A program made the translations under genes and the position numbers. Of a stretch of 64,000 nt of DNA, positions 5,240 through 61,600 are shown piece after piece (position 1 is the first letter of the stretch; the number at the start of each line of letters is the position of its first letter). The stretch comes from Pedobacter mucosus. GTDB lineage: Bacteria > Bacteroidota > Bacteroidia > Sphingobacteriales > Sphingobacteriaceae. The notes under the pieces were generated by a model. The model was not told the DNA's origin. It ran no database searches and saw nothing but the letters and a program-made list of their open reading frames with translations. The stretch covers positions 3,596,001 through 3,660,000 of the forward strand of contig NZ_CP087585.1 of NCBI RefSeq assembly GCF_022200785.1, written 5' to 3'.

Positions 5240-6514
5240 CTATGATGCCCAGGTTAAAGCGTAATTACCTTTTGGATCGAGGTTTTTAATGTTTTTATCA
5301 AAATCGAATACATTTTTCGTCTTCTGATCGTTGCCAACACCTGCAATATTTGCCCAATTTCCCCAATTACTTGCAGGATTATAATCGATTAATTTTTCTT
5401 CAAAATAGGCGGCACCCCAAACCCAACTCACTTCCAAATTATTAATTAAATACAGGGCAGCGGTTTGGCGAGCAATATTGGTAATGTAACCCGTTTGATT
5501 TAATTCAGTTATTACAGCATCAACAACAGCAAAACCGGTTTGTCCGCTCTTCCATTTATTAAAATTTTCTTGTTCGTTTGCCTCATCAACTAAACCTTGG
5601 CTACCAAAACCATTTGGACTAAAAAATCCATTACCATGTTTTTTGAACATAAAACGAAAATAATCTCTCCACAAAAGGCCTAATAAAATATTATTAAACA
5701 TGGCTTTGGTGTTCGGAATACTCTCCATTTTTTTGATTTCCCAGTAAACTTTACGTGGAGATAGGCAACCCATAGCTAGCCAAGCAGATAATTTTGAAGC
5801 CAAAATTAAATTTTTAGTAGTAGCGGCCTGTTGCATTGCAATAATAACTTTTTGCAGATGAATTAATCCTTCACTTTCTCCACCAATAAATTCAAAATCT
5901 GAACGTTGATCTTTTTCCTGGGGAATTAAGTTCAAATCTGCCAAAGATGGCAATAGTCCCCAATCAATAACATCGGCAACATTAATACGATCGGGCGCTA
6001 AAAAACAAGGTTTAATGATAGAATCACGTTCAATTTTTCTTTTGAACTGATTAAAAGCATCAGGAATATCTTTAATGGGAAAAGGTAAATCTTCTTTATT
6101 GTATAAAGTATGACCGATAAAATGTTTCAAATTTATACGCAGTTTCCATAAGGCATTTTCTAATAAGGTAGAAATAAATGTTTCTTCATTAGCAACCTCA
6201 CGATGATGATAAACCTCAGTAATTTCGTATTCTGAAACTAATTTTGGAATAATATCTTCAGGATAACCCTCAGCAATAAATAAATTTCCTCCTATTTTTT
6301 TTAATGAATCTCTTAATGCCAAAACACTTTCTAAAATAAACTTTGCACGAATATTTCCGGTTTTTAGGGTATCGTATTTAGTTTTTGCAAAAAGGCGAGG
6401 ATCTAAGATATAGACCGGTAAAATCGAATCTGATTTAGCTAAAGCATCAACAAGCATTTCGTTATCATGCAAACGAAGATCATTTCTAAACCAAACTAAA
6501 ATTTTTTTGGACAT
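5240..6514 (-). CDS. cryptochrome DASH-type photolyase
   Basis: Photolyase/cryptochrome family member that binds FAD and an antenna cofactor. The DASH subfamily is known to repair cyclobutane dimers in single-stranded DNA. N-terminal photolyase alpha/beta domain: ILVWFRNDLRLHDNE, VYILDPR. DASH-specific features are GHTLYNKEDLPFP, IPDAFNQFKRKI and the FAD region with KLSAWLAMGCLSPR, LLWRDYFRFM, NPASNWGNW and GVGND. At 424 residues the protein ends soon after NLDPKGNY and is shorter than the ~480-500 residues of plant and cyanobacterial DASH proteins; it lacks their C-terminal extension. Start ATG at 6514. Another photolyase lies 2.9 kb away on the other strand, so two light-repair enzymes are clustered. 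Confidence 0.9.
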   Translation of the reverse strand: MSKKILVWFRNDLRLHDNEMLVDALAKSDSILPVYILDPRLFAKTKYDTLKTGNIRAKFILESVLALRDSLKKIGGNLFIAEGYPEDIIPKLVSEYEITEVYHHREVANEETFISTLLENALWKLRINLKHFIGHTLYNKEDLPFPIKDIPDAFNQFKRKIERDSIIKPCFLAPDRINVADVIDWGLLPSLADLNLIPQEKDQRSDFEFIGGESEGLIHLQKVIIAMQQAATTKNLILASKLSAWLAMGCLSPRKVYWEIKKMESIPNTKAMFNNILLGLLWRDYFRFMFKKHGNGFFSPNGFGSQGLVDEANEQENFNKWKSGQTGFAVVDAVITELNQTGYITNIARQTAALYLINNLEVSWVWGAAYFEEKLIDYNPASNWGNWANIAGVGNDQKTKNVFDFDKNIKNLDPKGNYALTWAS

Positions 6515-43492: not shown

Positions 43493-43518
43493 AAAAAGTC
43501 CTAATAAAATTAGGACTT
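43493..43518 (-). terminator. terminator after the HsdR_N-like gene
   Basis: A 10-bp perfect stem, AAGTCCTAAT (43496-43505) with ATTAGGACTT (43509-43518), has T residues following on the minus strand. It separates htpG from the convergent HsdR_N-like gene. Confidence 0.75.
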
Positions 43519-43566
43519 AGTTGATAAGAATTTTCGGGAACTCTTAGATTAAAATATAATATTTTC

Positions 43567-44055
43567 TTAACTGGCAATTGCTTTATGCTCAACGTTAAAG
43601 TAGTCTTTATGCTCTTCAATCATTTTAGCAATTGTTGCAGCTTTTGTATCTGTAATTTTAAATTCAAATAATGGCTCTTGATTTTTTTTACTTCTCACCA
43701 TTTTTTCTGTGTAAAAGCGATACACTAACCCATTTGTAAGTAAGCCATACTTAGCTTTGGTTTTTCGGAAATATTTAGATAATCTCGAATCGTGAATATC
43801 CAAATTTTCATCATGGTGTTTGCATTCAACTAAAATTGTTGGCTCTCCATCTTTCATGATCGTGTAATCAACTTTGTTGCTTTTTTTAACGCCAAAGTCT
43901 AATACTGCTTCAGATTGAACTTCTGAAGGATCAAAACCTAAAATTTGAATAAAAGGTAAAACTAATGCATTTCTTGTTAAGTCTTCAGATTGAACCTGAG
44001 GGAGCATTTTCTTAATTCTCGTGGCAAATTGGCCGATTTCGTCTTTAAGTTCCAT
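43567..44055 (-). CDS. stand-alone type I restriction R-subunit N-terminal-like (HsdR_N) nuclease domain protein
   Basis: 162 residues covering only the HsdR_N-type PD-(D/E)xK nuclease fold, without the helicase part of HsdR. Helical start (ELKDEIGQFATRIKKMLPQV), then RNALVLPFIQILGFDPSEVQ and the core KVDYTIMKDGEPTILVECKH, which holds the metal-binding Asp and the Glu-x-Lys pair. After that come SRLSKYFRKTKAKYGLLTNG and LVYRFYTEK. The active-site residues look intact. No methylase or specificity subunit is nearby, so it is not a restriction system in itself. Such solo HsdR_N proteins are widespread in Bacteroidota with unknown role. A tiny membrane peptide gene lies 27 bp upstream on the same strand. 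Confidence 0.85.
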   Translation of the reverse strand: MELKDEIGQFATRIKKMLPQVQSEDLTRNALVLPFIQILGFDPSEVQSEAVLDFGVKKSNKVDYTIMKDGEPTILVECKHHDENLDIHDSRLSKYFRKTKAKYGLLTNGLVYRFYTEKMVRSKKNQEPLFEFKITDTKAATIAKMIEEHKDYFNVEHKAIAS

Positions 44056-44082
44056 GTTAGTGCTTTTAAGTGTATTAGTTTT

Positions 44083-44199
44083 TTAAACTATACCGGTTAT
44101 TAAATAAGCCTGCAATAACTGGGTAATTAGCGCTACCATGACTAATAAGTAAATGCTGGGATTTCTTTTTAAAAAAGAATTTTTGAAGTAAAAATTCAT
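44083..44199 (-). CDS. putative 38-residue membrane peptide
   Basis: Short minus-strand frame of 38 codons (ATG at 44199, TAA at 44083). The peptide has a basic N-terminus (MNFYFKNSFLKRNPS) and then one continuous hydrophobic segment (IYLLVMVALITQLLQAYLIT), as expected for a single-pass small membrane protein. It ends 27 bp before the HsdR_N-like start on the same strand, so the two are probably co-transcribed. No Shine-Dalgarno is visible, but that is normal here. An alternative 49-codon frame (44075-44224) overlaps it in another phase and looks less protein-like. I recognise no family; it could be chance, so confidence is modest. Confidence 0.4.
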   Translation of the reverse strand: MNFYFKNSFLKRNPSIYLLVMVALITQLLQAYLITGIV

Positions 44200-44224
44200 A
44201 ATCATTAAATTTAATTTGGGACAT

Positions 44225-44477
44225 TTTTGATAGATGTAAGGATGCTTTTGATCTTATTTTTTTAAGTTATATTTTTCTATCCCATTAGCATAGCCTGATT
44301 TCTGATGCAGGCCATACATATTGGGAAGGTAGATGTTTACATTATTCATTAAATTGTACTGTAAATTTTTAACACATTGATATTTACTTTAAAGGTTATA
44401 ATTATATAGGTACTACTATATTTTTTTACATGAACCTATTAGTTTATTACACGAAAAGACATTTTTTTGACATCAAA
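44225..44477. other. AT-rich intergenic region upstream of the LytTR regulator
   Basis: No gene is seen. It holds the element at 44408-44442 that recurs upstream of the histidine kinase gene, and leads into the well-formed promoter at 44478-44508. Confidence 0.5.
44408..44442. promoter_or_regulatory. shared regulatory-element candidate, copy 1
   Basis: AGGTACTACTATATTTTTTT followed by ACATGAACCTATTAG. The 14-bp core TATATTTTTTTACA (44417-44430) is identical to 45534-45547; in both places the core is flanked by GGT on the left and ACCTA on the right, giving a weak dyad. It lies 36 bp upstream of the -33 box of the LytTR gene. Binding by the LytTR protein is inferred. Confidence 0.4.
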
Positions 44478-44508
44478 TTTGGGAGGATAATTTTTTAAGC
44501 TACCTTTG
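44478..44508 (+). promoter_or_regulatory. promoter of the LytTR response regulator gene
   Basis: TTTG (44478-44481), a 19-bp spacer, and TACCTTTG (44501-44508) match the Bacteroidota TTTG-N19-TAnnTTTG consensus exactly. Transcription would start near 44515, about 58 bases before the ATG. Confidence 0.75.
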
Positions 44509-44572
44509 TACTACCAATTTAATTTTTAATTATATTGCATTGAAATCATTCCAAACGACATATTAAGACATC

Positions 44573-45310
44573 ATGAATCTAAAGTGCATTGTTATCGACG
44601 ATGAGCAACACGCGATAGAGGTATTAACAGACCATATTGCTGAAATGCCAGGACTTACTATTTTAAAAACTTTCACAAGCCCTGTGCAAGCTTTAACTGA
44701 GATAAGTATTGAAGATGAGATTGATATTCTTTTTATGGATATTGATATGCCAGGAATTAATGGCTTGGAATTAGCCAAAAATATCCGCGAAAAATCGAAA
44801 TACTTGGTGTTTACAACTGCTCATCCAGATTATGCGCTACAAGCATTTGATGTGCAATCAGATCAGTATTTACTAAAGCCAATATCCTTCGCGAAATTTG
44901 CTATTGGAATTGATAGAATTTTAAAGAAAGAAAGTACTATTGCTAAAAATGTTAAAGAAGTAGATCCTGTTGCCGCCTTATATATTAAAGGGGATCATAA
45001 ATATGCTTTTTCAAACATAGCTATTGAAGAAATACTTTACATTAAAGCACTGCAAAATTATATTCAAATTATTACTAAATCTGAAACCCATACCACTTAT
45101 CTTACTTTAAAGGAGATTGAAAAAGCTTTAGAAACGCATGCATTTATCAGGGTAAATAAATCAAACATTGTAGCTAAAGCCGCAATCAAAAAAGTGGATG
45201 GTAATATCATCCGTTTAACAAATAACGAGATGATTCAAATCGGCGAAGGCTACAAAGAAGCTTTCTTCGCCTATGTTCAGAGCAGCTTACTAAAATCCAA
45301 TAGGAGTTAG
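44573..45310 (+). CDS. LytTR family response regulator
   Basis: Two-component DNA-binding regulator, 245 residues. Receiver domain 1-120: CIVIDDEQHAIEVL, phosphorylation site Asp56 in LFMDIDMPG, LVFTTAHPDYALQAF and the Lys102 loop QYLLKPISFAKF. LytTR DNA-binding domain about 145-240: YIKGDHKYAFSNIAIEEILY, YIQIITKSETHTTYLTLKE, HAFIRVNKSNIVAKAAIKKV and GYKEAF. It probably pairs with the LytS-type kinase at 45605-46720. It converges on the precursor-like gene, which ends 2 bp beyond this stop codon on the other strand. It has an exact promoter and an element shared with the kinase upstream region. Confidence 0.93.
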   Translation: MNLKCIVIDDEQHAIEVLTDHIAEMPGLTILKTFTSPVQALTEISIEDEIDILFMDIDMPGINGLELAKNIREKSKYLVFTTAHPDYALQAFDVQSDQYLLKPISFAKFAIGIDRILKKESTIAKNVKEVDPVAALYIKGDHKYAFSNIAIEEILYIKALQNYIQIITKSETHTTYLTLKEIEKALETHAFIRVNKSNIVAKAAIKKVDGNIIRLTNNEMIQIGEGYKEAFFAYVQSSLLKSNRS

Positions 45311-45312
45311 TA

Positions 45313-45453
45313 CTATTTATTGCAAATAAAAGTTATTACAATAGATTGTGCTGTAACTGTTGAAGGATCTGTATTGAATCCGTTTTGATCTTTGTTACTT
45401 TTATAAACAAATACTGTTTTTTTTGCAAGTCTGTTATTGTTTTGAGCTTTCAT
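45313..45453 (-). CDS. putative class I lanthipeptide precursor peptide
   Basis: A 46-codon gene (ATG at 45453, TAG at 45313). The N-terminal half is basic and Asn-rich (MKAQNNNRLAKKTVFVYK) and resembles Bacteroidota class I lanthipeptide leaders with an L-x-K-K-T motif. The C-terminal half (FNTDPSTVTAQSIVITFICN) is rich in Ser and Thr (residues 28, 31, 32, 34, 37, 41) and has a single Cys at 44. The TDP(S/T)T start of the core is a pattern I associate with these precursors. With only one Cys, at most one (methyl)lanthionine ring can form. The LanB dehydratase is encoded 1.3 kb away on the same strand. There is no double-Gly or obvious protease site. The gene lies between the two-component genes. 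Confidence 0.72.
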   Translation of the reverse strand: MKAQNNNRLAKKTVFVYKSNKDQNGFNTDPSTVTAQSIVITFICNK

Positions 45454-45525
45454 AATATATATTTTAAATTGTTTTAATTAAAAATTATTGTTGTTATTTA
45501 TTTCTGTAAAGGTGCATGAGATTAT

Positions 45526-45560
45526 CCGGTGAATATATTTTTTTACACATAACACCTAAT
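45526..45560. promoter_or_regulatory. shared regulatory-element candidate, copy 2
   Basis: Contains the core TATATTTTTTTACA (45534-45547) identical to copy 1 at 44417-44430, with GGT to the left (45528-45530) and ACCTA to the right (45554-45558). It lies in the 151-bp divergent interval between the precursor-like gene and the kinase gene, where a regulator could act on both. I found no complete -33/-7 pair in this interval on either strand. Confidence 0.4.
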
Positions 45561-45604
45561 ATAAGGAGATAAAAGGCCTTTATTCATTCATTACGAAACA
45601 AAAA

Positions 45605-46720
45605 ATGAGCTTATTTTCCTTAAAAAACTTTATTAGAAAGTATAAAATCCACTTTATAGTATGGATTATTTACATCACCTACGAAATCTATATTACCGGA
45701 TCTATGAGTAAAAGATTTGGAACAATAGGTATCTACTTTGTAATTTATACTTTAATTATTTCTATTTTTTATATTCATGCTTATTTTTATGAAAAAGAAC
45801 TAAATAGAAAAAATGTTACTTTAAAATTTATTAGAATCCCAGTAATTATCTGCCTAGAAATTATTGGTTATACTCTTCTCGCTATTTACCTTAGAATAGC
45901 CTTTAACAGGATACATATAATTGATACCGATGAGTCACAGTTGTTTATAAAAGAGTTTATAATGGGCAGCATATGGCGTTCGCTGTATTTTATTGGCTTT
46001 TCAACAGGTTATGTTTATATTTTAAAATCTTTTGAAGATCGAAAAAAAGTTGAAGCATTGGAACGTCAGAGCCTAGTAACTCAGATCGAAAAACAAACCT
46101 TGGAGAATGATTTGGTTCATTCGCAAAACAATTATTTAAGAAGCCAGATTAATCCGCATTTCTTATTTAACACGCTCAATTTCATTTATAATGACGCTCG
46201 TAAAAAAGCACCAATGGCAGCAGATGCCATTATGAACCTTGCAGAAATGATGCGTTATGCCCTTAAAAGGCCAGAAGCTTCAGAAATGGTTTCACTTAAT
46301 GAAGAAATTGAGCAAATCGAACACCTTATAAATCTTCATAAACTTAGAACAGCTAATACCATAAATTTGCAACTTGATGTAATTGGTGATATGTTTGGAT
46401 TGCGGTTCCCACCGCTTATTTTATTAACATTGGTTGAAAATATTTTTAAGCATGGAAACGTCACTCATTCCTCGCAAACTGCATTAATAAGAATTTCTTA
46501 TGAAAGAAATACCCTAAATATTACAACTATCAATATGATTAATGAAATACGTGGGGCAGAAAGAGAAAGTCATAATGTAGGCATTGATAATATCAATAAA
46601 CGTTTAAAAAACTTTTATGGAGATAATTACATCTTTAAATTTTTCAAAGATCCATTAAATAGGTTCATTACAGAAATTGACGTTAAAGTTCCGAATCCTA
46701 TGTCAACATTAATAAATTAA
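45605..46720 (+). CDS. LytS/YehU-type sensor histidine kinase
   Basis: Membrane sensor kinase, 371 residues. Four hydrophobic segments in the first 140 residues (about 15-31, 42-62, 78-97, 123-141), then a short coiled coil (ALERQSLVTQIEKQTLENDL). The His_kinase domain has the phospho-acceptor His185 in QINPHFLFNTLN and the RYALKRPEASEMVSLNEEIE block. The HATPase domain has LTLVENIFKHGN (N box) and VGIDNINKRL (G box). It has no separate extracellular sensor domain, as in peptide-sensing kinases with membrane-embedded sensing (inference). The partner is the LytTR regulator at 44573. Its stop codon overlaps the LanB stop codon (46717-46720). Confidence 0.92.
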   Translation: MSLFSLKNFIRKYKIHFIVWIIYITYEIYITGSMSKRFGTIGIYFVIYTLIISIFYIHAYFYEKELNRKNVTLKFIRIPVIICLEIIGYTLLAIYLRIAFNRIHIIDTDESQLFIKEFIMGSIWRSLYFIGFSTGYVYILKSFEDRKKVEALERQSLVTQIEKQTLENDLVHSQNNYLRSQINPHFLFNTLNFIYNDARKKAPMAADAIMNLAEMMRYALKRPEASEMVSLNEEIEQIEHLINLHKLRTANTINLQLDVIGDMFGLRFPPLILLTLVENIFKHGNVTHSSQTALIRISYERNTLNITTINMINEIRGAERESHNVGIDNINKRLKNFYGDNYIFKFFKDPLNRFITEIDVKVPNPMSTLIN

Positions 46721-49515
46721 TGTCCAAGCGCATTTAAACGCTGAATATCTTTTAATAAAAAATAATACATCACCATTTCGTGAGTTCGTTGATCTTTATC
46801 AAATAAGCGATTAACATGCATATGTATTAAATCACTGAGCAATTTTAATCTTCTATTTGGTAAACAATCTCTCAGTATAGTTAATAGGGATCGATTCATT
46901 TGCTCAAATTTGCTCAGCTGATCGGTATTAAGTTCACAGTTATTTACTTTGCGGTATAGTTGATATTGAACATTCAATTGTTTAAAATCTGCTGCATCTA
47001 GTTGATGTTCTTCATTAAATGAATCAGACATTAATCTAATCAGTTTTAATGATTCTTCTTTACTAATTATTTCTGAGTGCTGAACATTAAACATTAACGA
47101 GGCACATACTTTGTACTTACAGAAATGATCAGGTTGCGTTTCTAACATTGATAGCACAAAATTGCTATCCATATAAAAATGTTCTTCAATTTTTTCTATT
47201 AAATCTTCGCCATATCGATCTATTTCTCTTTTATAGATTTTAATTTGAAGATCGGAAACTAATCCATTTAATAATTTATCCTTTAAATAATTTGAAAACG
47301 CTGAAGTTAGAATTTGTCCATCCTCCTTATTATGCAGCAAAACTCTAAATCGAATATGGTTTCCATTTTCATTGTATCTTATAAAGAACCATAATTTAAT
47401 TTTTTCCCTGTACTCTAAAATAAATGCTGTAATAACTTCAATCAAAATTTGATCTGACCTTTGTTGATGACAATAGATTTCAAAATATAGCCAATCATTT
47501 CCTGGTAGAAAGTTTTTTGTAACCAGATTGCTTGGTTCATTATATTGCCCTTTTAAGCCTTCGTAAATTTGATTTCCATGATTAAGATTAAAAATGAATT
47601 GAGCATTATACGGCGCTAAGTTTTCGTCCTTAACACAACTATTAATGGGCAAGATAACCTCTTCAAGGTAAATGCTATCTTGCTTTTGCATAAATAGAAT
47701 AAAAGCTGATAAATCTTCATCACTATTTATAAAGAAGCAAAGCGTTTGATCCGAAACTCCGGTCTTAAAGCATTTACTAACGCCTTTTTCTATTAGATAA
47801 CTTCGACAATACTCGATCGTAGGATTTCCATTTATAAAGATTTCACGCTTTGTAACTTGCCATTTCGACATGCTTAACACAATATTTTTATACTGCAATC
47901 TTGGATAATAATTCAAATCAGGAAAAATCTGATCCAAGGAGATGGATAAGTTAACTTGTAAATCTTGATTTTGTAAGTCGCATAACAACCTAAAAACGGC
48001 AAGATCAGATCTACTATAATTATAGGCCGATGCTATTTTTGGAATGATTCTTTTATTATGTTTCTTTGAGCGCAGAATTACCGTATTGCCAGCTATTGAA
48101 ACCATAATATCATTTAAGGTAAGTGGATCGTTTGAAGTATCGAAATTTAATATAGATAACTGGTGACTGTAAACTAACTTCCGTCTGTTTATATTATCAA
48201 TATTTGTTTCTACCATGTAAGCCACATCAAAAAATAAAATATCAGGATTAGCTAATTGCTCAATCTCCGCAACCTTTTTACAGTTTTTTTCAACGGTAAT
48301 ATCTGCCAAGCTAAACCTTCCACTTAAGGCATTAGCAGTTGCGCCACCAATTTGATTAACACATAATAAGTCATCACTTATTGATAGAAGTAAACTGAAA
48401 GTGTTCGGCAATTTAACCTCCGTATCGTTTCTTTTGAGCGCTAACTTATCCAAAAATATTGTTTTGTTATCTTCAAATTTTTGAGGGATTAACACACTAC
48501 TTAAAACAGATTGAAGATTGTTTACTATTGATTCCTTAGTTTTTCTATTATTAAGTTTACTTATAAAATCAACATTTTGGCCAGCATGCTCAAGCTCATC
48601 ATAGCCAATTCCAATTTCTGGATCCATAACAGTCAGCAATGCGACTTCCTGTTGTTCAAATTTTTTAATGAATTTATCCTTAAAATTTCTTAAGGCTTCA
48701 GGTTCATTTACGGGTAAAACACTTTGTAATAAAGATATTAAATTGGGAACAGCAGAAAACAAGTTTTCGTTTAACGTTCCAGCTTTCACCTTACGCTTAG
48801 CAATAATATATTTTGGAATATTATCATCGCTCTTAATTTCTAACCGTTGAAAATAATCTTCTCCAATTATATTCGGATCGAAATCCGTAAAAACTAATTG
48901 AATAGCATGCATATCTTCCAATAAATTATAAATCGATTCTTTGTCTTCATTATTTAACTGGAGCTTTTCAAGCAAATCATAAAACTTGATAGGTTTTAAA
49001 CAAGCGACTAATATTCGAATTATTAAATCACTATTTTCTATTTCAGCAAGCTCAAATAAACCATCAGTACATGCGATATATCTAATATTTCCTGCTATTA
49101 AATAATAACTACTGTTGCTAAATAGATATAAATTTTTTTCTAAAAGATCGAAAAACGGAACTTGAATATCATTTTTAACAGGCCAATCTATAAATTCATT
49201 AACCAGCTGTTCTTCGTTTATGGTGATGTTAGCGTCTTCATTTTTAAAAGCATTTTCTAAAATACTAAAGCTAGCGAAAGTCCCGTATGGAGTTGACCGA
49301 AACTTTGCTCTATTGAAATATTTCCAAATGGTAAAGAATATTTTTGGCGGAAGGCTTTGTAAATCATCTGCTTTTATTTCTTTAATTGTTTGATAAAAGG
49401 CATCAGAAGAAATCGCTATAGATTTTTTTAATTCTTCCCAACTGGCTGCCAAATCTGAATGATAAGAAAATTTTGGAGTTCTAAAAATTACCGTGGGATC
49501 GAATTTAATTTTCAT
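46717..49515 (-). CDS. class I lanthipeptide dehydratase (LanB), full length
   Basis: LanB enzymes dehydrate Ser/Thr of a precursor peptide by tRNA-Glu-dependent glutamylation followed by elimination. 932 residues, close to NisB-type length, with both parts fused. The N-terminal glutamylation domain (Lant_dehydr_N, about 1-640) starts FDPTVIFRTPKFSY and carries the family motif FRSTPYGTFASFS (72-84). The C-terminal elimination domain (SpaB_C, about 670-925) has NDWLYFEIYCHQQ, WFFIRYNENGNHIRFRVLL (710-728) and the REIDRYG motif near 763-769. No frame damage is seen. No LanC, ABC transporter or protease gene is adjacent. The PorE-like gene lies upstream behind a terminator; the kinase gene converges with overlapping stops. 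Confidence 0.9.
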   Translation of the reverse strand: MKIKFDPTVIFRTPKFSYHSDLAASWEELKKSIAISSDAFYQTIKEIKADDLQSLPPKIFFTIWKYFNRAKFRSTPYGTFASFSILENAFKNEDANITINEEQLVNEFIDWPVKNDIQVPFFDLLEKNLYLFSNSSYYLIAGNIRYIACTDGLFELAEIENSDLIIRILVACLKPIKFYDLLEKLQLNNEDKESIYNLLEDMHAIQLVFTDFDPNIIGEDYFQRLEIKSDDNIPKYIIAKRKVKAGTLNENLFSAVPNLISLLQSVLPVNEPEALRNFKDKFIKKFEQQEVALLTVMDPEIGIGYDELEHAGQNVDFISKLNNRKTKESIVNNLQSVLSSVLIPQKFEDNKTIFLDKLALKRNDTEVKLPNTFSLLLSISDDLLCVNQIGGATANALSGRFSLADITVEKNCKKVAEIEQLANPDILFFDVAYMVETNIDNINRRKLVYSHQLSILNFDTSNDPLTLNDIMVSIAGNTVILRSKKHNKRIIPKIASAYNYSRSDLAVFRLLCDLQNQDLQVNLSISLDQIFPDLNYYPRLQYKNIVLSMSKWQVTKREIFINGNPTIEYCRSYLIEKGVSKCFKTGVSDQTLCFFINSDEDLSAFILFMQKQDSIYLEEVILPINSCVKDENLAPYNAQFIFNLNHGNQIYEGLKGQYNEPSNLVTKNFLPGNDWLYFEIYCHQQRSDQILIEVITAFILEYREKIKLWFFIRYNENGNHIRFRVLLHNKEDGQILTSAFSNYLKDKLLNGLVSDLQIKIYKREIDRYGEDLIEKIEEHFYMDSNFVLSMLETQPDHFCKYKVCASLMFNVQHSEIISKEESLKLIRLMSDSFNEEHQLDAADFKQLNVQYQLYRKVNNCELNTDQLSKFEQMNRSLLTILRDCLPNRRLKLLSDLIHMHVNRLFDKDQRTHEMVMYYFLLKDIQRLNALGH

Positions 49516-49576
49516 AGCGCTATTATAATTGGTGAAAATTACAAAGATTAATTTTTAAATTATTTGTATAAAACGC

Positions 49577-49606
49577 AAAAAAGCCATTTCCCGAAGAAAA
49601 TGGCTT
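49577..49606 (-). terminator. terminator after the T9SS surface-protein operon
   Basis: Stem AAGCCATTTC (49581-49590) with GAAAATGGCTT (49596-49606), one bulge, with T residues following on the minus strand. It closes the operon of the giant protein, PorP/SprF and the PorE-like protein, and insulates the LanB gene. Confidence 0.8.
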
Positions 49607-49626
49607 GATAAAATAAAAATTAGCGA

Positions 49627-51621
49627 TTATTTTTTGGTCACTCTAAATTCAGTTCGTCTATTTTTTGCTCTACCATCTGGATTATCTTTCTTTTTCCTAC
49701 CAACGGTTATGGTATTTGGAGCTATTGGAAAAGCTTCGCCATATCCTTTCGATGTCATCCTTGCTGCCGATATGCCTTTAGTAATTAAATAATCTACACA
49801 TGATTTTGCTCTTTTGGCAGATAAATCTAAATTATACTCATCTGTACCCATGCTATCAGTATGGGCGCCTAATTCGATTTCGATTTCAGGATTATCTTCC
49901 ATAATAGGAACGATCATATTCAAAATCGTTTTTGATGGCTCTGTTAGTTCGGCACTATTAAATTCATAATATACATTCTCTAAAACGATTACCGGATCAA
50001 TATGAACTAAGCAATAATCCTTATAAATTAACGTATCTGATTTTGCAAGCTCCTCATAAGAGTAGTTACTTGCCATAGCAAAATAGTCTTTCTTAGCAAA
50101 GAAAAGCTTTATTGGTCTTTTCGAATCCACCTTAAAATCATATTTCCCATCGATACCTGTAACTAATTTCTGCTCACCATCTACAGTCGATAGTGTTACT
50201 GATGCGCCTGCGATTGGTTTTTTTGTTTTACAATCTGATAAAATACCTTTAACTGATAAAAACTCTTTTGTTATTTCTAAAACCTCTAAACAACATGAAG
50301 ATTCTCTATCAGAACTTATATAAGCTTTCGTTCCTTTTTCGTCAACTATTGTAAAGTATACATCGTCTTTAGATGAATTAAAAGGATATCCCATATTTTT
50401 AGGAGTTGTCCAACTAACAAAATCTCCTTCCGATTCAAAGAAATCTAATCCACCAAGTCCGATTTTTCCATCCGTACTAAATAGTAATTTTTTAGTCAAT
50501 GGATTATAAAAAGGGGCCTTCTCGTCTTCTTCAGTGTTAATGGTTGGCCCAAAGTTAATAGCCTGACTTAAAGATCCATCTTCGCGAATTGCACAATACC
50601 AAAGATCATACTTTCCAAATCCGCCAGTTCTATCTGATGAAAATAAAAGAAACTTGCCATCATTTGTTATAGATGGCTGAGCCGAATTGAAATCCTTGCT
50701 ATTAACTTGTAAGCCTGCAGCTAATGGATCAGTCCACTTGCTTCCTGATTTTTTTGAAGTGAAAATTGTATACTTACCTTTATCAATCCAAGTAGTAAAG
50801 TAAGCGGTATTTCCATCAGGACTAAAAGTTGCTGCTGCAACTTCCATATTTTTTGGAAAGCTAATATCCGACGACTTAACCGAGATTTCAGCTTCATTTA
50901 ATCCGTTTTTAGTGGTATAGATGTTATTTAAGTAGGGATTTGCTTTTGTAGATACCTGCACTCCTTTACCTTCAGCTTTAATTACATCATTTTTTCCACC
51001 AACAGAAACTGGCCTGGAGGAAGTAAAATAAAATTCATCTTTTGTTTTTACTGGAGCATAATTTGAGCCTAATCCATTAATGTTATTTGGCATTTTTTTA
51101 ACCTGTAACATTCTAGGATAGCGCATTTCTTCAATGGCAAATTTGCAAGATAAAATTTCCTTTTTCGCTGGTTCAACAAGAACGTCATTAGTATGCTTAT
51201 CTATAAATAATTGAAAAGCATCAATTGCTAAATTAAACTTTTTATTTGCCCTTAAGCTTTCCGCGTAATAAAAAAGCGAATTCTTGTAGTTAGGATTGGT
51301 AAAGGTTTTTGCAATAGCATAATACTTTTCAGCATCGGCGAATTCTCTATACATTCTGCTGGACTCCGCCAGTTTAAATATCGATTCTTCATAGTCAAGA
51401 ATTATCTTTACATCCTTCTTAGATTTTCTCTCTTTTCCATAAGGTAAAATAACCTGCGAACTATCGCCAGTATTACTTAATGCCTTTTTGTAGAACGTTG
51501 AAGCTGCATAATAATCTTTATTTTCAAAATAAGTATCGGCAACTCTTTTATAATTTACTACATATTGTGCATTAGCAAAACCGCCAAAAGCTACTAATAA
51601 TAAGAGTATTAATTTTTTCAT
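49627..51621 (-). CDS. PorE-like OmpA family protein (TPR-PD40-CRD-OmpA)
   Basis: Envelope protein with the architecture of P. gingivalis PorE, a type IX secretion component that binds peptidoglycan. 664 residues. Signal peptide MKKLILLLLVAFGGFANA; TPR-like helices about 20-165 (ADTYFENKDYYAASTFYKKA, YAESLRANKKFNLAIDAFQL). PD40/WD40-like propeller blades about 185-430: AATFSPDGNTAYFTTW, QPSITNDGKFLLFSSDRTGG and KKLLFSTDGKIGLGG. A carboxypeptidase-regulatory-like domain lies about 450-520 (GILSDCKTKKPIAGASVTLS). The C-terminal OmpA domain has LGAHTDSMGTDEYNLDLSAK and GRAKNRRTEFRV. It is 11 bp downstream of the PorP/SprF gene. Other PorE-like paralogues are common in these genomes, so it may serve this surface protein rather than the core machine. 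Confidence 0.9.
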   Translation of the reverse strand: MKKLILLLLVAFGGFANAQYVVNYKRVADTYFENKDYYAASTFYKKALSNTGDSSQVILPYGKERKSKKDVKIILDYEESIFKLAESSRMYREFADAEKYYAIAKTFTNPNYKNSLFYYAESLRANKKFNLAIDAFQLFIDKHTNDVLVEPAKKEILSCKFAIEEMRYPRMLQVKKMPNNINGLGSNYAPVKTKDEFYFTSSRPVSVGGKNDVIKAEGKGVQVSTKANPYLNNIYTTKNGLNEAEISVKSSDISFPKNMEVAAATFSPDGNTAYFTTWIDKGKYTIFTSKKSGSKWTDPLAAGLQVNSKDFNSAQPSITNDGKFLLFSSDRTGGFGKYDLWYCAIREDGSLSQAINFGPTINTEEDEKAPFYNPLTKKLLFSTDGKIGLGGLDFFESEGDFVSWTTPKNMGYPFNSSKDDVYFTIVDEKGTKAYISSDRESSCCLEVLEITKEFLSVKGILSDCKTKKPIAGASVTLSTVDGEQKLVTGIDGKYDFKVDSKRPIKLFFAKKDYFAMASNYSYEELAKSDTLIYKDYCLVHIDPVIVLENVYYEFNSAELTEPSKTILNMIVPIMEDNPEIEIELGAHTDSMGTDEYNLDLSAKRAKSCVDYLITKGISAARMTSKGYGEAFPIAPNTITVGRKKKDNPDGRAKNRRTEFRVTKK

Positions 51622-52675: not shown

Positions 52676-55600
52676 TTACCTAATTAATGTAATTGTACCT
52701 TTTCTTCTAGAATCACTACCATCATTGAAGGTTATTTCCACCATATAAACGTATACTCCGATTGGCTGATTTACACCTTTAAAAGTTCCGTCCCATCCGT
52801 TAGCAAAATTATCGGATTGGAAGATTAATTGGCCCCATTGCGTAAACACACTCATTTTAGCGCTAGCAATTGTATTTCCATAGATCAAGAAGATATCATT
52901 CTTTCCGTCATTATTTGGTGTAAATGTGTTCGGAATATAAACTGCATTTCCTAAAGGATTAGTTGCTTTACCAGTGGCTGAACCATTTGCACTAGTTTGG
53001 CAATCGATCTGACCTTTAGCCCTTACAAGAATGCTTACACTTTGATCAGGTTTCATACCTGCTACTAAGTAAGTTGTACCAGTTGATCCAGTTGTTGGGC
53101 TTACCCACGTTAAGCCATTATCTTGCGAAACTTCGTAAGCGGTAGCACCTGCAATTGCAGCCCAAGCAAATGTTACACTGGTTGGCGTTGTTGTTTGTAC
53201 TACTACTGAAGGCTTCTCTAATATTGGAAGAACATTAACGGTAACACCTGTTCTTGTTGGACTTGCACAACCGCCTAAAGCTATTGCTTCAACATAGTAA
53301 ACTGTTGTAGCAGTTAAGTTTGGTGTAGTAAAAGTTATACCTTCAGCTAATACCGGGCCACTAGAGCTTGCTGCATACCATCTGTAGATTAATCCAGTAA
53401 CTGGATTGTTTACTGTCAATATTGTTGAGCTTCCTGCGCAAATTGTTCCATTTGCAGCTGTTACTGATGCTGGTGCAACAGGCACTGGAAGTGCAATTAC
53501 ATTAACCGGTGTTCTAGATACTGATGTACAAGATCCATTTGCGCCACCAACATAATAGGTAGTGTTTGTATTAGCCACTGGAGTTGTAAAGGTTGTTCCC
53601 GTTCCAACTGGTGTTCCGCCTGTTGCTGCTGTATACCAATTATATACTACACCAATTTGAGGATTTGTAACAGTTAAAATAGCTGAACTTCCTGTACATA
53701 CACTTACCGATGTTGAAGCGACGGTAGGTACTGTTGGTTTCGCATTAACAGTAACAGTTGCTTTAACTCGTCCACTATTGCTGCTACAACCTGCTGTTCC
53801 GATTGCAAGGATATAATAATCTGTTGTTGTAGCTAAAGTTGCTACAGTAAATGTTGTACCTGTGAATAATAAATTACCCCCAGTTGCTGCATTATACCAT
53901 TCATAAGTAACACCAGCTTGAGCATTGGTAATTGTTAGTGTGGCTCCATCACCTGCACATATCCCTCCATTTGGAACAGATACTACTGGGTTATTTGGTA
54001 ATGCATTTACTGTTATGGCAACAGCTCTTGCTGTTGAAGCGTTATTTTCACATTTATTGTCACCCTTAACAGTTACATAATAAGTTGTACTTGCAGTTAA
54101 TATTGGTGTAGTAAAACTTGAACCCGTAAATACAACTGTATTTAAGCTTGCATCACTATACCAAGTGAATATTGGATTAGTAACTGTTGTGCTCGTTGCG
54201 GTTAATGTTGCTGCTGCACTTGCACAAATTGAAGTTGAGCCTGTTACCGTAATATCCGTTGCAACCGCAATTGGATTTACTGTAACGGTTACTATCTTCG
54301 CACCAGAAGCTGTGTTCTCACATTTGTTAGTCCCTTTAACCGTTACATAATAAGTAGTGGTTGCAGTTAATACAGGAGTCGTAAAGGTTGGTCCCATAAA
54401 TGCAATACTTGTTAATGAAGCATCTGTATACCAAGTAAATATCGGATTAGTAACTGTGGTAGAACTTGCACTTAATACGGCTGTACCAGAACCACATATT
54501 TTTGCCGGAGCAGGTATTGTGATATCTAATGCAACTGCAACTGCATTTACAATAACGGTTACAACTTTTGCATTCGCAGCTGAGCTTTCACATCTGTTAT
54601 CACCTTTTACAGTAAGGTAATATCTAGTTAATGCGGTTAACGCGGGCGTGTTAAAAGTTACGCCTGTAAATACCGGTGTTGTTAAGGCTGCATCACTATA
54701 CCAGGTAAATACTGGGTTAGTAACTGTTGTAGAGCTTGCAACTAAACTAGCTGATGACCCTGAACAAATGGTTGCATCTGCTGCAGTTACATCACTTGGT
54801 GAAGCGATTGGATTGACTACTATATTAATCACTTTCGCTGTAGCAGCACTATTTTCACATTTATTATCTCCTTTAACAGTAACATAATAAGTTGTACTAG
54901 TAGCCAATATAGGTGTAGTAAATACTGCGCCTACAAAAGCCACATTAGATAAAGCTGCATTAGAATACCAAGTAAATACTGGGTTAGTAACCGTTGTACT
55001 ACTTGCTGTTAGTACCGCAGCTGATCCTCCACATATATTTGTTGATCCATTGACAACAATATCACTTGCCACTGCTATTGGATTAACTTTAATGGTAACT
55101 ACCGCAGCATTTGCTGCTGTGTTTTCACATTTGTTAGCACCCTTAACTGTTACATAATAAGTAGTTGTCGTTGTTAATACTGGTGTAGTAAATATTGGGC
55201 CAGTAAATGCAACACTTGTTAGGGAAGCATCTCTATACCAAGTGAATATTGGACTAGTGACAGTTGTTGAACTAGCGTTGATAACTGCTGTACCTGACCC
55301 ACACACTATAACTGGTGTTGATAAGGTAATGTCAGATGCTAATGCAGCAGGATTAACATTTACAGTTACGATTTTCACGGTGATACTTGAGTTTTCACAT
55401 TTATTATCGCCCTTAACTGTTACATAGTATTTAGTTGTTGCATTTAATATTGGAGTAACAAACGATGTACCTACATAAGCAACCGAAGTTAATGCAGCAT
55501 TATTATACCAAGTAAATGTTGGGTTTGTTACTGTTGTTGTACTTGCTACCAAAGTGGTACCAGATCCTGAGCAGATGGTCGCATCAGCAGCTGCAATATC

Positions 55601-58600
55601 AGCAGCTGTAGAAACCGGACTAACTGTTATAGTTATTATTCTGGCAGTTCCTGGTGCATTTTCACATTTATTGTCACCCTTAACAGTTACATAAAAAGTT
55701 GTATTTGTTGTTAGAGGTGGCGTTGTATAAGTAGCCCCAATGAAACTCACATTAGTTAATGCAGCATCACTATACCAAGTAAATATTGGATTAGTTACTG
55801 TTGGAGATGTTGCACTTAATACAGCGGATGATCCTGCGCATACTACTGTGCTTCCATTTAGAATAATATCAGTAGAGATGGCTAATGGGTTAACCGTTAT
55901 AGTAACTGCTTTAGCATCTGCAGCTGTATTTTCACATTTATTTGCTCCTTTAACACTTACATAGAAAGTTGTTGTCGTTGTTAATCCAGTTACGGTAAAA
56001 GTTGGACCAGTAAATACCACACTTGTTAAAGATGCATCACTGTACCAAGTAAATAGTGGTTGCGTTACAGTTGTACTCGAAGCCATTAACATTACGGTAG
56101 AACCTGAACAGATTTGAGCATTGCTAACTGTAATATCTGCCGCAACAGCGATCTCCTTCACTGTTACCGTAACAACCTTCGCATTTGCTGGTAAATTTTC
56201 ACATTTATTATCTCCTTTTACGGTTACATAATAAGTTGTATTTGAAGTTAAAGTAGGTGTAGTGAAGCTAGCACCAATATGAGCTACCGTAGTTAAGTTT
56301 GCATTGCTATACCAGGTAAATATCGGATTGATAACTGTTGTGGTAGAAGCAGACAAATCAGTTGTCGATCCTTTACAAATCGATGTTATGCCGCTTGTAG
56401 TTATATCTAAATCAGTAGCTAATGGATTAACCGTAATGGTAATCGATTTTGCTGTAGCAGCAGTGTTCTCACATTTATTATCTCCTTTAACCGTTACATA
56501 ATAGGTTGTTGTTGCAGTAAGTACTGGAGTAGTAAAACTAGTTCCTGTAAATGCTATTGTGGTTAAAGCAGCATCACTGTACCATGTAAATATTGGATTA
56601 GTTACTGTTGTGCTTGTTGCAGTTAAAGTAACCGACGAGCCACCGCAAACGGTACTTGTCCCTGCTAAATTAATATCAGTAGGAACAGCAATCGGATTTA
56701 CTGTTACGGTAACTTCTTTTGCATTACCTGGTGTATTTGCGCATTTATTTGTTCCACTAACTGTTACAAAATATTTAGTGGTTACTGCGATGGCTGGTGT
56801 ATTAAACACTGCACCAACAAAGGCAACTTGTGTTAAAGCGGCGTTAGTATACCAGGTAAAAACTGGGTTAGTAACTGTTGAACTGGTCGCTGTAAGTATT
56901 GTTGTACCTGAAGCACATAATGATGTTGTTCCAGTTACTGTTAAATCTGTAGGATCTGCAAATGGATTCACAATAATAGAAACAACGGCACGGGTTGAGT
57001 TTGAACAACCTGTTCCACTCACCGCTTCAACATAATAACTATATGTTCCTGCTGATAGCGACGTTGGTGTTGTAAAGCTACTGTTATTTGTTACCAACAT
57101 GTTTCCGCCAATAGCTGCATCATACCAGTTATAAACTACTCCTGCAACTGCCTGTACACTTAAAGTAGCAGGTGAGCCAATACAAGTTGTAGCTGGGTTA
57201 GTAGTTGATGGAATTGGTGCTGCAGGTGGCGCTAAAATTGTTACCACTACTTCAGTTCCTAAAGTTTCACAACCATTAGCCGTTGCCCTTACTGAATAAG
57301 TATAAGCTCCAGCAGATAAAGCTGGATCTGTTAAAAATGTTGCACCGTCTTTTCCAGTTTGATATGTTGTTCCTAAATACCATTTGTAAATGATATTCGC
57401 TTGTGGATTCTGAACACTTAAGGTTGCGGAAGCACCTTGACAAGCACTTGCTGTTACTGCAGTTAATATAGGCTTAGCGATTACTCTTTGTGCGTAATCT
57501 AGATTAACAGATGTTAATGCACCTAAAATACCTGAGCTTAATCTCAATTCTACCCCGTCAAATCTACTAGTTGGTACAAAAGTTAAGATGGCAGATGTTC
57601 CACCTGCTAACAATTTTAAGCTAATTAATGGGTTAGATATAGAAACCGCATCGTTATTACTAGTTGTACCTTGGAAAGTTGTTACGGTTAAGTTTGGCAA
57701 CACAGCTAAGGAAAGCAATGCACCAGGATTAGAAATTTTTATCGTTAAGGCATCACCAACATTTGATAAACCTGTAAAACCTACTTGGTGATAAGCAGAA
57801 GCTCCTAATAATCCTACTGGGATTACTAAACTAGATCCTGTGTTAATGTCATTATCGACTGCAAATGTTGGGTTATAAACACCCCCTAACAAACCTAAAC
57901 CAGTAAAACCGCTAGCAACTGTAGTAGTGGCAGCTCCACATGGAGTAGTTTCTGGTGTTCCTGGAGGAACAACAGTAACCGTTACTGTTGCTCTACTAGT
58001 TGCTGTACAACCACCTAAAATAGTAGCTTCAACATAATACGTTGTTGTCGCATTTAATGGTGGCGTTACAAAAGTTTCACCTGTAAATACTGGAACTATT
58101 CCGTTTGCAGTAGTATACCAGTTAATGGTTGCACCTGTTGTACTAGAAGTTGCTTTCAACTCTGCAACAGATCCTCTGCTAATGGTGATTGACGGTGGCG
58201 TAATCACCGGAACATCAATTGTTCCTAATGTGATTTTGCCTTCTGTTCTTGTTGATGAAGTACCACAACTATTTACCGCAGATACAAAATAACTTGTATT
58301 TGCAGTAACTAAAGGTGTTACAAAAGTATCTCCTGTAAACAATACAGTTGTAGAAATTGCACTGCTATACCAGTTGTAAGTGGTTCCTGCAATTGGATTT
58401 TTAACTTGGAATGTAACTGATGTATTTGGACATGTATTAACGGATGCAGAAAGTAAATCTGGTGTTACTGGCGCAGGATTGGTAGTTACAGTTACTAATG
58501 TTTTGTAGCTTACACAACCAGATGCAGAAACTGCTGCAACATAAAATTTAGTATCACCGGTTAAAATTGGTGTAGTAAATATGATACCGTCTTTACCTGT

Positions 58601-61600
58601 TAAGTAAGTACCAGTAGCATCATACCATTTATAGGTTAAGCTAGCGGAAGGATTACTTACTTCAATTTGTGTAGTTTGACCAACACAAGCTGTAACATTT
58701 GCAGATTTTACCGTTGGCGCAACTAATATGCGTTGTGCATAGTTTAAATTGATCGATGTTAAAGCGCCTAATATGCCTGAGTTCAACCTTACTTCTACCC
58801 CATCAAAAACATTAGTTGGAACAAAAGTGATCAAAGCTTGCGTATTACCGCTTAACAATTGAATATTTAATAAGCCACTATTTAACAACCTTGAATCCCC
58901 ATTGCTGTTGGTTCCAACATAAGTGGTAATTGCTGCGTTTCCTAATAATGAAAGAGACAATAGTTTTCCAGGTGATGAGACTAAAACACGTACCGTGTCA
59001 CCGATTTGACTTAATGAACCAAAACCAACTCTTTGGTAAACTGATGCTGCAAGTGCACCAACTGGCATTACCAATGAAGATGCTGTTTGGGTATCATTAT
59101 CAATTGCTAATGCAGGGTTAAATACACCTGATAATAATGCAACACCTGTAACACCGTTAACCTGTGTAGTTGCTGCCTCGCATGGAACCGGATTTGGAGT
59201 ATTACCATCAACTGTGATCGTAACCTGAACACGGCTTGCAGATGTACAGCCATTGGTAGAAACCGATGCTACAAAATAGGTTGTAGTAATTAATAATGGC
59301 GGTGTTACATAAGTAGAACCTACATAAACCGGTGTTGTTGAAGTATTAGAAGTATACCAATTGAAGGTATTGGTTGCATCTAAAGAACTAGCAGTTAAAA
59401 TTGCAGTTTGTCCAGCACTTACTGTTGATGAACTTGCAGTTACAACTGGTAAAACCGGACGAGGGTTAACAGAAACGGCTGCAGCAGCACGAACTGCACT
59501 TGTGCAGTTTCCTTGAGAAGCCTCAACATAGTAAGTCGTTGCAGTTGTTAATATCGGAGTTGAAAATACCGGACCTGTGAATAGTAAGGTTCCGGATGTT
59601 GCTGCATCATACCATTTGTAAGTTACTGCAGCATCTGGATTAGCAACCGATAAAGTTGCTGATGATCCTTCACATACATTGGCGATGGTTGCCAATACTG
59701 GTGTTGGAAGTGCTGGTGTAACTGTTATAGTTACAGGCACTCTTGTTAAGTTAGCACAGGTTCCTTTGCTAATTTGAATATAATATGTAGTTGAAGTAGA
59801 TAAAACAGGAGTGGTAAATGTTTCGCCAGTGGCTAATTGTGTACCACCAGTTGCTGCATCGTACCATGCTAATGTTGTACCGCCGTTTGCTGTTGCAGTT
59901 AAAGTTGCCGTACTACCAGCGCAAATGGTTTGCGCACCTGCTGTAATTGTTGGTCTAGGATAAATTACTGTTGCTCCGTATATATCTAAACTAGTAACAG
60001 CGGTAACTAAAGCACCGAAACTTACTCGAACTCTATCGTAAGCACCTCCTGCCAATATAGTTGCTGCGAAACGGCTACCAGAAAGTAGTTGAAGATTTAA
60101 TAATGATGAATTTAATTGAACCGTTCTAACCACTGTAGAACCATTCATTACATTTAAAGTAACATTACCTAAGGCAGTTAAATCTAATAAACCACCCGGT
60201 AAAGCTAAGTCTAAACGAAGACTATCTGTAGCAGTTCCAACTGTTGGAAATATTAATTGCTGATAACCAGATGCACCAACACCCACAGAAAGAGATATTC
60301 TTGTAAAGTTATTAGGATTAGCATCGGTAGAATTTCCTGCGTCAGTAATTCCGCATAAAACACAAAGTCCGGTTATTCCTGAATTTTGTGAATTAGCTGC
60401 ATTACAATCAGCACCACCACCATTTATTATTACTGTAACAGTTACTGGTACACGTGTTACACTTTTACAACCGTTAGCATTTGTAGTTTCTACATAATAA
60501 ATTGTTGTTGCTGATAATACTGGAGTAGTAAATGAATTACCAGACCCCACTTGGTTTCCTCCTGTATTAGCATCGTACCATTGTATGGTATTTCCAGCAT
60601 CAGCGGTAGCAAGTAAAGTAGTAGACTGACCTGCATTAATTACTTGACTATTTGTAGTAACTGTTGCTAAAGTTGCTGATGGATTGATTGAAACGGTAAC
60701 AGCAACTCTCGAACTAACTGCTGTTCCTGAAATCGCTTCTACATAAAATACGGTAGATGAAGATACAGCTGGAGTTATAAAAGTACCGTTGTTACCAGTT
60801 ACTAATGGTGTACTACCAGTAGAGGCGTACCAGTTATAGGTAACACCCGACAGTAAATTGCTTACACTTAATGTTGCAGAACTTCCAGCACAAACTGTTG
60901 CCGAGGCAACTATTGGATCACCAACTGTTACCGTTAAGCTGTATGCAGTTGTTGCTTTATTTCCATTTGCATCCGTTGCTGTTAAAGAAATAGTAAAAGT
61001 TCCACCTAATGTTGGTGTTCCTGTAATTTCTCTTGTTGCAGTATTAAAATTTAATCCCGGAGGAAGATTTGTGGCTAAGTAAGTATATGGAGCAGTTCCG
61101 CCTACTACTGCTGGCAAAGTTTGAGGTGCATAAGGTGAGCCTACTATACCATTTGGTAAAGTTGCGCCTGGCAATGATAACACACCAATTATTTTAAGTG
61201 CATAAGTATTACTTGCTTTTCTACCTTCGCTATCTGTGGCAGTTACACCAATAGAATAATTTCCGGCCTGCGTAGGTGTTCCAGAAACTTCTCTTGTGCT
61301 TTGGTTATAAGATAATCCAGCAGGAAGATTACTTGCTACGTATGTATATGGGCCAACACCACCAAGTGCTGAAGGCAAGGTTTGAGTAGTGTAAACTGTC
61401 CCTTCTGTTCCATCAGGCAAAATTGCTCCAGGTAGTGAAAAAGGATCAATAACTATGATTGAATAATTATTAGTTGCTGTTCTTCCATCAGCATCGGTAA
61501 CCGTTACTGGTACCGAAAATGTTCCTGATTGTGTAGGTATTCCTGTGATTGCCCTAGTTGCAGGATCGAAGGTTAATCCTGGAGGAAGACCTGTAGTTGA

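Follow-up and report, generated by a model that had tools for sequence, protein, structure and literature searches.

The four genes that lie between positions 44573 and 49515 of the window, by which we mean the whole 64,000-nucleotide stretch of the Pedobacter mucosus genome analysed here, quite probably form an agr-like pherotype locus in Bacteroidota, in which a LanB-type dehydratase would make a Ser/Thr-rich peptide signal for the sensor kinase encoded beside it. This is the best-supported reading of the sequence comparisons reported below, and its self-sensing part is stronger than its chemistry part. LanB peptides are usually antimicrobials, and peptide quorum sensing via two-component systems has mostly been described in Gram-positive bacteria. 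The original prediction had offered self-sensing with a LytTR output as a guess, which now has strong comparative support from the co-variation of core and sensor, the swapping of cassettes between species, and repeats with LytTR spacing.

Gene content and conservation of the locus

The locus consists of a LytTR response regulator gene (44573-45310, plus strand, 245 aa, Response_reg and LytTR domains), a precursor peptide gene (45313-45453, minus strand, 46 aa, single copy in the window), a LytS-type sensor kinase gene (45605-46720, plus strand, 371 aa, His_kinase PF06580), and a gene for a full-length LanB-type dehydratase (46717-49515, minus strand, 932 aa, Lant_dehydr_N and Lant_dehydr_C). 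All four open reading frames were placed exactly where the original prediction had put them, and the domains of the regulator, the kinase, and LanB passed the curated Pfam cut-offs. The 3' end of the LanB gene overlaps the kinase gene by 4 bp in the window, and an overlap of a few bases between these two 3' ends is found in most loci, L088 having a 567-bp gap instead. The host genome is a single contig of 4.93 Mb, in which the window LanB is the sole PF04738 (LanB) gene found.

A same-genus search covered 145 genomes, 116 of which gave some LanB match and 56 of which, the window genome included, carry an orthologue (51-59% identity, full length); the orthologue set excludes the partial LanB of G090, which comes from a draft genome and spans only 350 residues. 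The gene order that we had been led to check, regulator (+), peptide (-), kinase (+), LanB (-), is kept in 56/56 orthologous loci, so the peptide is bracketed by its own kinase and regulator throughout, and every one of the 56 has a homologous peptide at the same place and on the same strand, whose absence beside LanB in relatives would have spoken against the proposal. The regulator is 86-92% identical in the 55 other loci and the kinase 57-71% across the orthologous loci. The position of the locus is also fixed, with HtpG and HSDR_N-like genes adjoining it in every orthologous locus of the 56 whose retrieved stretch extends that far (HtpG lies outside L033). As in an agr-type system, the genes for the membrane sensor kinase and the LytTR regulator thus sit in one unit with that for the presumed signal. 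No transporter, protease, or peptidase was found in the conserved unit, which counts against the pherotype reading, and there is no AgrB-type protease among the four genes. The C39 peptidase (PF03412) had no match in the host genome, and a GG-type exporter is therefore not the export route. By eye, a distant LanB locus (L069, 7861-11398) has two adjoining genes, one of them for a C39-peptidase-like ABC transporter, a possible export route in that branch.

Some neighbouring genes deserve mention in their own right. The HSDR_N-like protein of the window (43567-44055, minus strand, 162 aa) is 82-96% conserved, which is unusually high, and it may share a minus-strand transcript. A 49-aa open reading frame at 44075-44224 (minus strand) looks like an internally deleted remnant of one of about 125 aa, which is found at the same place where the gap between the regulator and HSDR genes is longer, e.g., in L077, L101, and L055. 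On the other side, a 3754-aa repetitive surface protein is encoded at 52676-63940 (minus strand) with OmpA-like and PorP-like genes adjoining, and this synteny recurs in many relatives.

Beyond the orthologues, 150 LanB stretches picked by similarity to the window LanB fell into groups in which a kinase and regulator lie within 3.5 kb of LanB in 56/56, 52/54, 20/20, and 16/20 stretches, the last group being the long LanBs. Among named loci, which include Pedobacter, Mucilaginibacter, Olivibacter, Hufsiella, and Taibaiella, 76/80 have the kinase/regulator pair, with genomes that partly overlap the 150-stretch sample. The description of the locus as minimal was consequently too narrow, since Sphingobacteriaceae commonly have LanB next to a LytS/LytTR-type pair, with the genes arranged in several ways. 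A motif search outside the orthologue set recovered 43 peptides at the matching place in 43/94 stretches, six of them with Cys, and some distant peptides of the family resemble, by eye, the LxLxKx5L leader motif given in a LanC-centred survey (Walker 2020, PMC7268733). In a phylum-wide sample, 29/296 genomes have any LanB relative of the window query.

The LanB enzyme and the precursor peptide

The LanB motifs RSTPYG, SGRF, HIRFR, REIDRYG, and IHMHVNRL align with NisB for both half reactions, which confirms the earlier observation of intact motifs (including REIDRYG), and several of the NisB-aligned residues are invariant in 41 relatives. The locus thus has what a class I lanthipeptide system has in this respect, a full-length LanB with glutamylation and elimination domains. 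The lanthipeptide label itself did not survive the comparison, as LanC (PF05147) has no match in the host genome (4.93 Mb, single contig), is absent from 56/56 orthologous stretches, and has no match in 28/56 orthologue genomes, while the peptides are nearly Cys-free. The other 28 genomes have LanC somewhere, and in G066 a LanC-like gene (G066:C1:4179701-4180789) is separated from the LanB orthologue by about 6 kb, on the far side of HtpG and past the limits of the retrieved stretch L077. In the 150 LanB stretches, LanC was found in three, never alongside the kinase/regulator pair (0/150 by two-seed phmmer, in a sample chosen by similarity to the window LanB).

The window precursor has a leader that reaches to about residue 26 and includes the conserved KKTVFVYK, followed by the Ser/Thr-rich core NTDPSTVTAQSIVITFICNK. 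Each locus holds 1-8 peptide genes, 145 copies being kept overall and 24 loci being single-copy (assembly gaps make the number for L048 uncertain); 15 open reading frames without the leader motif were excluded from the count, including a frameshifted copy in L039 and a copy at an assembly gap in L048. The window peptide matched no family in Pfam or NCBIfam at E<=1, and ten peptides of the family matched no NCBIfam family. In 88 close between-species pairs, which are mutually non-independent, the pooled dN/dS was 0.16 for the leader and 0.14 for the core, and these values together with the homologues in place in all 56 loci led us to reject a chance open reading frame. The Ser/Thr content is 33% in cores and 15% in leaders, so this element of the original description stands, whereas the single Cys that it also listed as a feature is an exception. 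Cys occurs in 6/145 copies, four in L040, one in the window, and one in L048, where it sits in a spurious N-terminal extension at an assembly gap, and the peptides are Cys-free in 54/56 loci. With so little Cys and no LanC, the expected products would be linear Dha/Dhb peptides, and LanB probably dehydrates the Ser/Thr-rich peptide into a pheromone of this kind.

Leaders share 67% identity and cores 46% when different loci are compared (1540 pairs), and within tandem arrays the cores are the more alike, at 89% against 79% for leaders (221 pairs). The within-array cores show a dN/dS of 0.07 at a pS of 0.46 (125 overlapping pairs, for which no p-value is claimed), indicating that core identity is kept by selection and not by conversion alone. 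Selection thus keeps the cores constant inside a genome, yet they differ among species.

Co-variation of sensor and core

The sensor region of the kinase (aa 1-150) is hydrophobic and hypervariable, as seen from the region scan and hydropathy peaks, and the H-box NPHFLFN is invariant in 50 aligned kinases. Distances were tested in 54 loci, the near-duplicate L039 and L098 with its mis-called kinase start being dropped. The mean distances were 0.06 for the regulator, 0.10 for the HSDR_N-like neighbour, 0.18 for the kinase domain, 0.35-0.41 for LanB, 0.53 for the sensor (residues 1-150), and 0.59 for the core, a picture in which signal and sensor are hypervariable together on a conserved backbone, as in agr-type systems. 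In partial Mantel tests, core and sensor were correlated at r=0.63 with HSDR as control and r=0.57 with five controls (p=0.0005, the lowest value that 2000 permutations allow), and at r=0.61 (p=0.001) with leader, LanB, kinase, regulator, and HSDR as controls. For 27 disjoint nearest pairs, the Spearman coefficient was 0.86 and the partial coefficient 0.82 (permutation p=0.0002). A scan of the kinase in 25-residue steps placed the correlation with the core in residues 1-150 (r 0.25-0.54), while the steps past residue 150 were in part weakly positive (<=0.19) and in part negative (to -0.29). Two results count against the pherotype reading: the core also tracks, weakly, the middle part of LanB (partial r 0.22, p=0.0015) and the kinase domain (0.13, p=0.02), and the leader-sensor Spearman coefficient was 0.63 before adjustment, a correlation that vanishes given the core (r=0.04, p=0.28).

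Swapped cassettes of sensor and core are found in pairs of close species. Between L042 and L043, the DNA identity is 0.98 in the regulator, 0.57 in kinase residues 1-150, 0.96 in the kinase part, and 0.95 in LanB, so that HSDR, regulator, kinase part, and LanB are all 95-98% identical around a diverged sensor; divergence in swaps extends to the gap that separates peptide and kinase (0.69-0.96). Such swap-type pairs number 34/1431 and are drawn from 24/54 loci. The nearest relative of the sensor differs from that of the backbone in 40/54 loci, and the core sides with the sensor and not with the backbone in 25/26 informative loci (those with a clear gap). The sensor distance is below 0.2 in 37 pairs, in none of which does the core distance exceed 0.25, and identical cores are sometimes paired with diverged sensors (distance 0.35-0.45), which indicates that the sensor-core constraint is one-sided. 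A search of plasmids for the kinase returned only matches below 60% identity.

Putative regulatory repeats and the non-coding block

A LytTR-like direct-repeat array with units about 22 bp apart lies upstream of the peptide gene (45536-45600, minus strand), with TTATGTGTAAAAAAA nearest the peptide and then TTTTATCTCC. Three such repeats are conserved upstream of the peptide, and the nearest holds TGTAAAAA, which is invariant in 55/55 aligned upstream regions; a strict pair pattern was found in only 4/55 peptide upstream regions, which counts against the pherotype reading; the repeats are conserved in the 55 aligned regions. A GCA(C/T)CTTTACA block that follows the repeats (45504-45515, minus strand), invariant or nearly so in 54/55, may be a -7 element of the peptide promoter. 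The regulator gene is preceded by three TTNRTSTAA-like units with 21-bp spacing (44426-44476, minus strand), two of them forming an exact pair and the other having one mismatch. An adjacent pair with at most one mismatch per unit is found there on the minus strand in 55/55 loci, this being the strict pattern that only 4/55 peptide upstream regions show. With two mismatches allowed, the pattern has five matches in the window, and 2.1 are expected by shuffling, so the case for the regulator array rests on conservation. The spacing and direct orientation fit those of LytTR sites, and the arrays, as predicted sites before the peptide and regulator genes, suggest feedback.

In the host genome, exact pairs gave five matches at four places and the reversed control two. 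Triple arrays gave 40 matches in 35/56 genomes and none in the control, 32 at this locus and eight elsewhere. Four of the eight precede, by 137-281 bp and in matching orientation, genes for secreted-looking or lipoprotein-like proteins (N-termini judged by eye), one is divergent from such a gene, and three face no gene start; as putative regulon sites they are a lead only. A triple array of the window's genome (L218, near 5592-5643) lies 105 bp from a divergent gene for a 1167-aa secreted-looking protein, a possible regulon member.

Just downstream of the 44426-44476 array, a conserved non-coding block (44281-44389, minus strand) contains a 13-bp hairpin with a C-rich 5' flank. It was matched in 48/54 loci tested and occurs once per genome, at this locus, in 8/8 genomes, five further matches being its own opposite strand. 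The hairpin arms hardly vary across loci, and the covariation analysis was unsupportive: of 500 shuffles, 92 reached the observed number of paired cells, 25 the covariation score, and 464 the number of pairs changed on both sides. Rfam gave no match over 43500-50000. The block is possibly a LytTR-controlled small RNA or a 5' UTR.

Discussion

The proposed agr-like pherotype system would work as follows. The small gene would yield a precursor with a conserved leader and a C-terminal core acting as the signal; LanB would recognise the leader and dehydrate Ser/Thr of this core to a Dha/Dhb peptide that is mostly linear because LanC and Cys are lacking. The peptide would then be exported and its leader removed, and the N-terminal membrane region of the kinase would bind its cognate core. 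The kinase would phosphorylate the LytTR regulator, which may bind the direct-repeat arrays upstream of the peptide genes, closing a positive feedback loop, as well as the arrays before its own gene, and may control further targets.

In its layout, the locus resembles agr (AgrB, D, C, A) of Firmicutes, which likewise has a peptide gene beside a membrane-sensor kinase and LytTR regulator, a segment of signal and sensor that is hypervariable while the output is conserved, direct repeats for LytTR ahead of the signal gene (here putative), and possibly a divergent small RNA (here a candidate). It differs in having LanB where agr has AgrB, a predicted dehydrated linear peptide where agr has a thiolactone, interleaved strands, and a host in Bacteroidota. 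With nisin (NisA, B, C, T, P, R, K), the locus shares a LanB-type dehydratase, a leader-bearing precursor, and a two-component system, whereas the unit described here lacks LanC, transporter, and protease and has a LytTR-type regulator, Cys-poor cores, and a hypervariable sensor. The class I lanthipeptides of Bacteroidetes (pinensins; PedA of Pedobacter lusitanus) share the phylum and LanB, but they contain Cys and come with LanC. PMC8895600 credits Bacteroidetes with similarity matches to every Nis protein except two and lists complete Agr only for other groups. In the open-access library searched, we found no published description of the unit; subscription papers on pinensin and Pedobacter lusitanus could hold part of it.

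A nisin-like product, an antimicrobial that induces its own synthesis and whose core diversity reflects competition with the sensor following, would accord with the usual role of LanB peptides, and its autoinduction would yield the same core-sensor co-variation. We nevertheless consider it unlikely, because the conserved unit has no LanC, immunity gene, exporter, or protease, its site beside the HtpG and HSDR_N-like genes is fixed in the 56 orthologous loci where the stretch reaches, and the cores are nearly without Cys. More improbable still is that the co-variation reflects linkage only, the peptide and sensor segment being a recombination hot spot and the kinase sensing something else, e.g., the envelope state. 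Peptide and sensor are adjacent and one recombination event moves both, so part of the co-variation may indeed be linkage, and the divergence of the peptide-kinase gap in swaps fits this. However, the leader lies between core and sensor, and it is the leader that loses its correlation with the sensor given the core (r=0.04), while the core keeps its own given the leader (r=0.61) and follows the sensor in all but one of the 26 informative loci.

A canonical class I lanthipeptide, with a cyclase encoded elsewhere or spontaneous cyclisation, was rejected and seems to us highly improbable. The one Cys of the window core and the LanC genes found somewhere in half of the orthologue genomes, including the one about 6 kb from LanB in G066, would suit it, but the 4.9-Mb single-contig genome has no LanC match, 54/56 loci are Cys-free, and none of the 150 similarity-picked stretches joins LanC to the kinase/regulator pair. 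The agr-like pherotype reading remains the preferred one. Whether it extends to a separate kind of cell-cell communication is, in our estimation, an evenly balanced question; this would comprise linear Dha/Dhb pheromones made by LanC-free LanBs, coevolving membrane kinases, a LytTR output, exchangeable pherotype cassettes, and perhaps the control of a small RNA, and it would be found across Sphingobacteriaceae and in at least one genus of Chitinophagaceae.

If true, this would be an unusual signalling language for this bacterial group, and the social biology of a Gram-negative soil genus would become testable through its pherotype system. LanB enzymes without LanC would gain a function, and specificity could be studied with the matched and mismatched pairs of sensor and core that occur in nature. 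A further consequence would be a warning that many Bacteroidota loci called "lanthipeptide" may serve in signalling.
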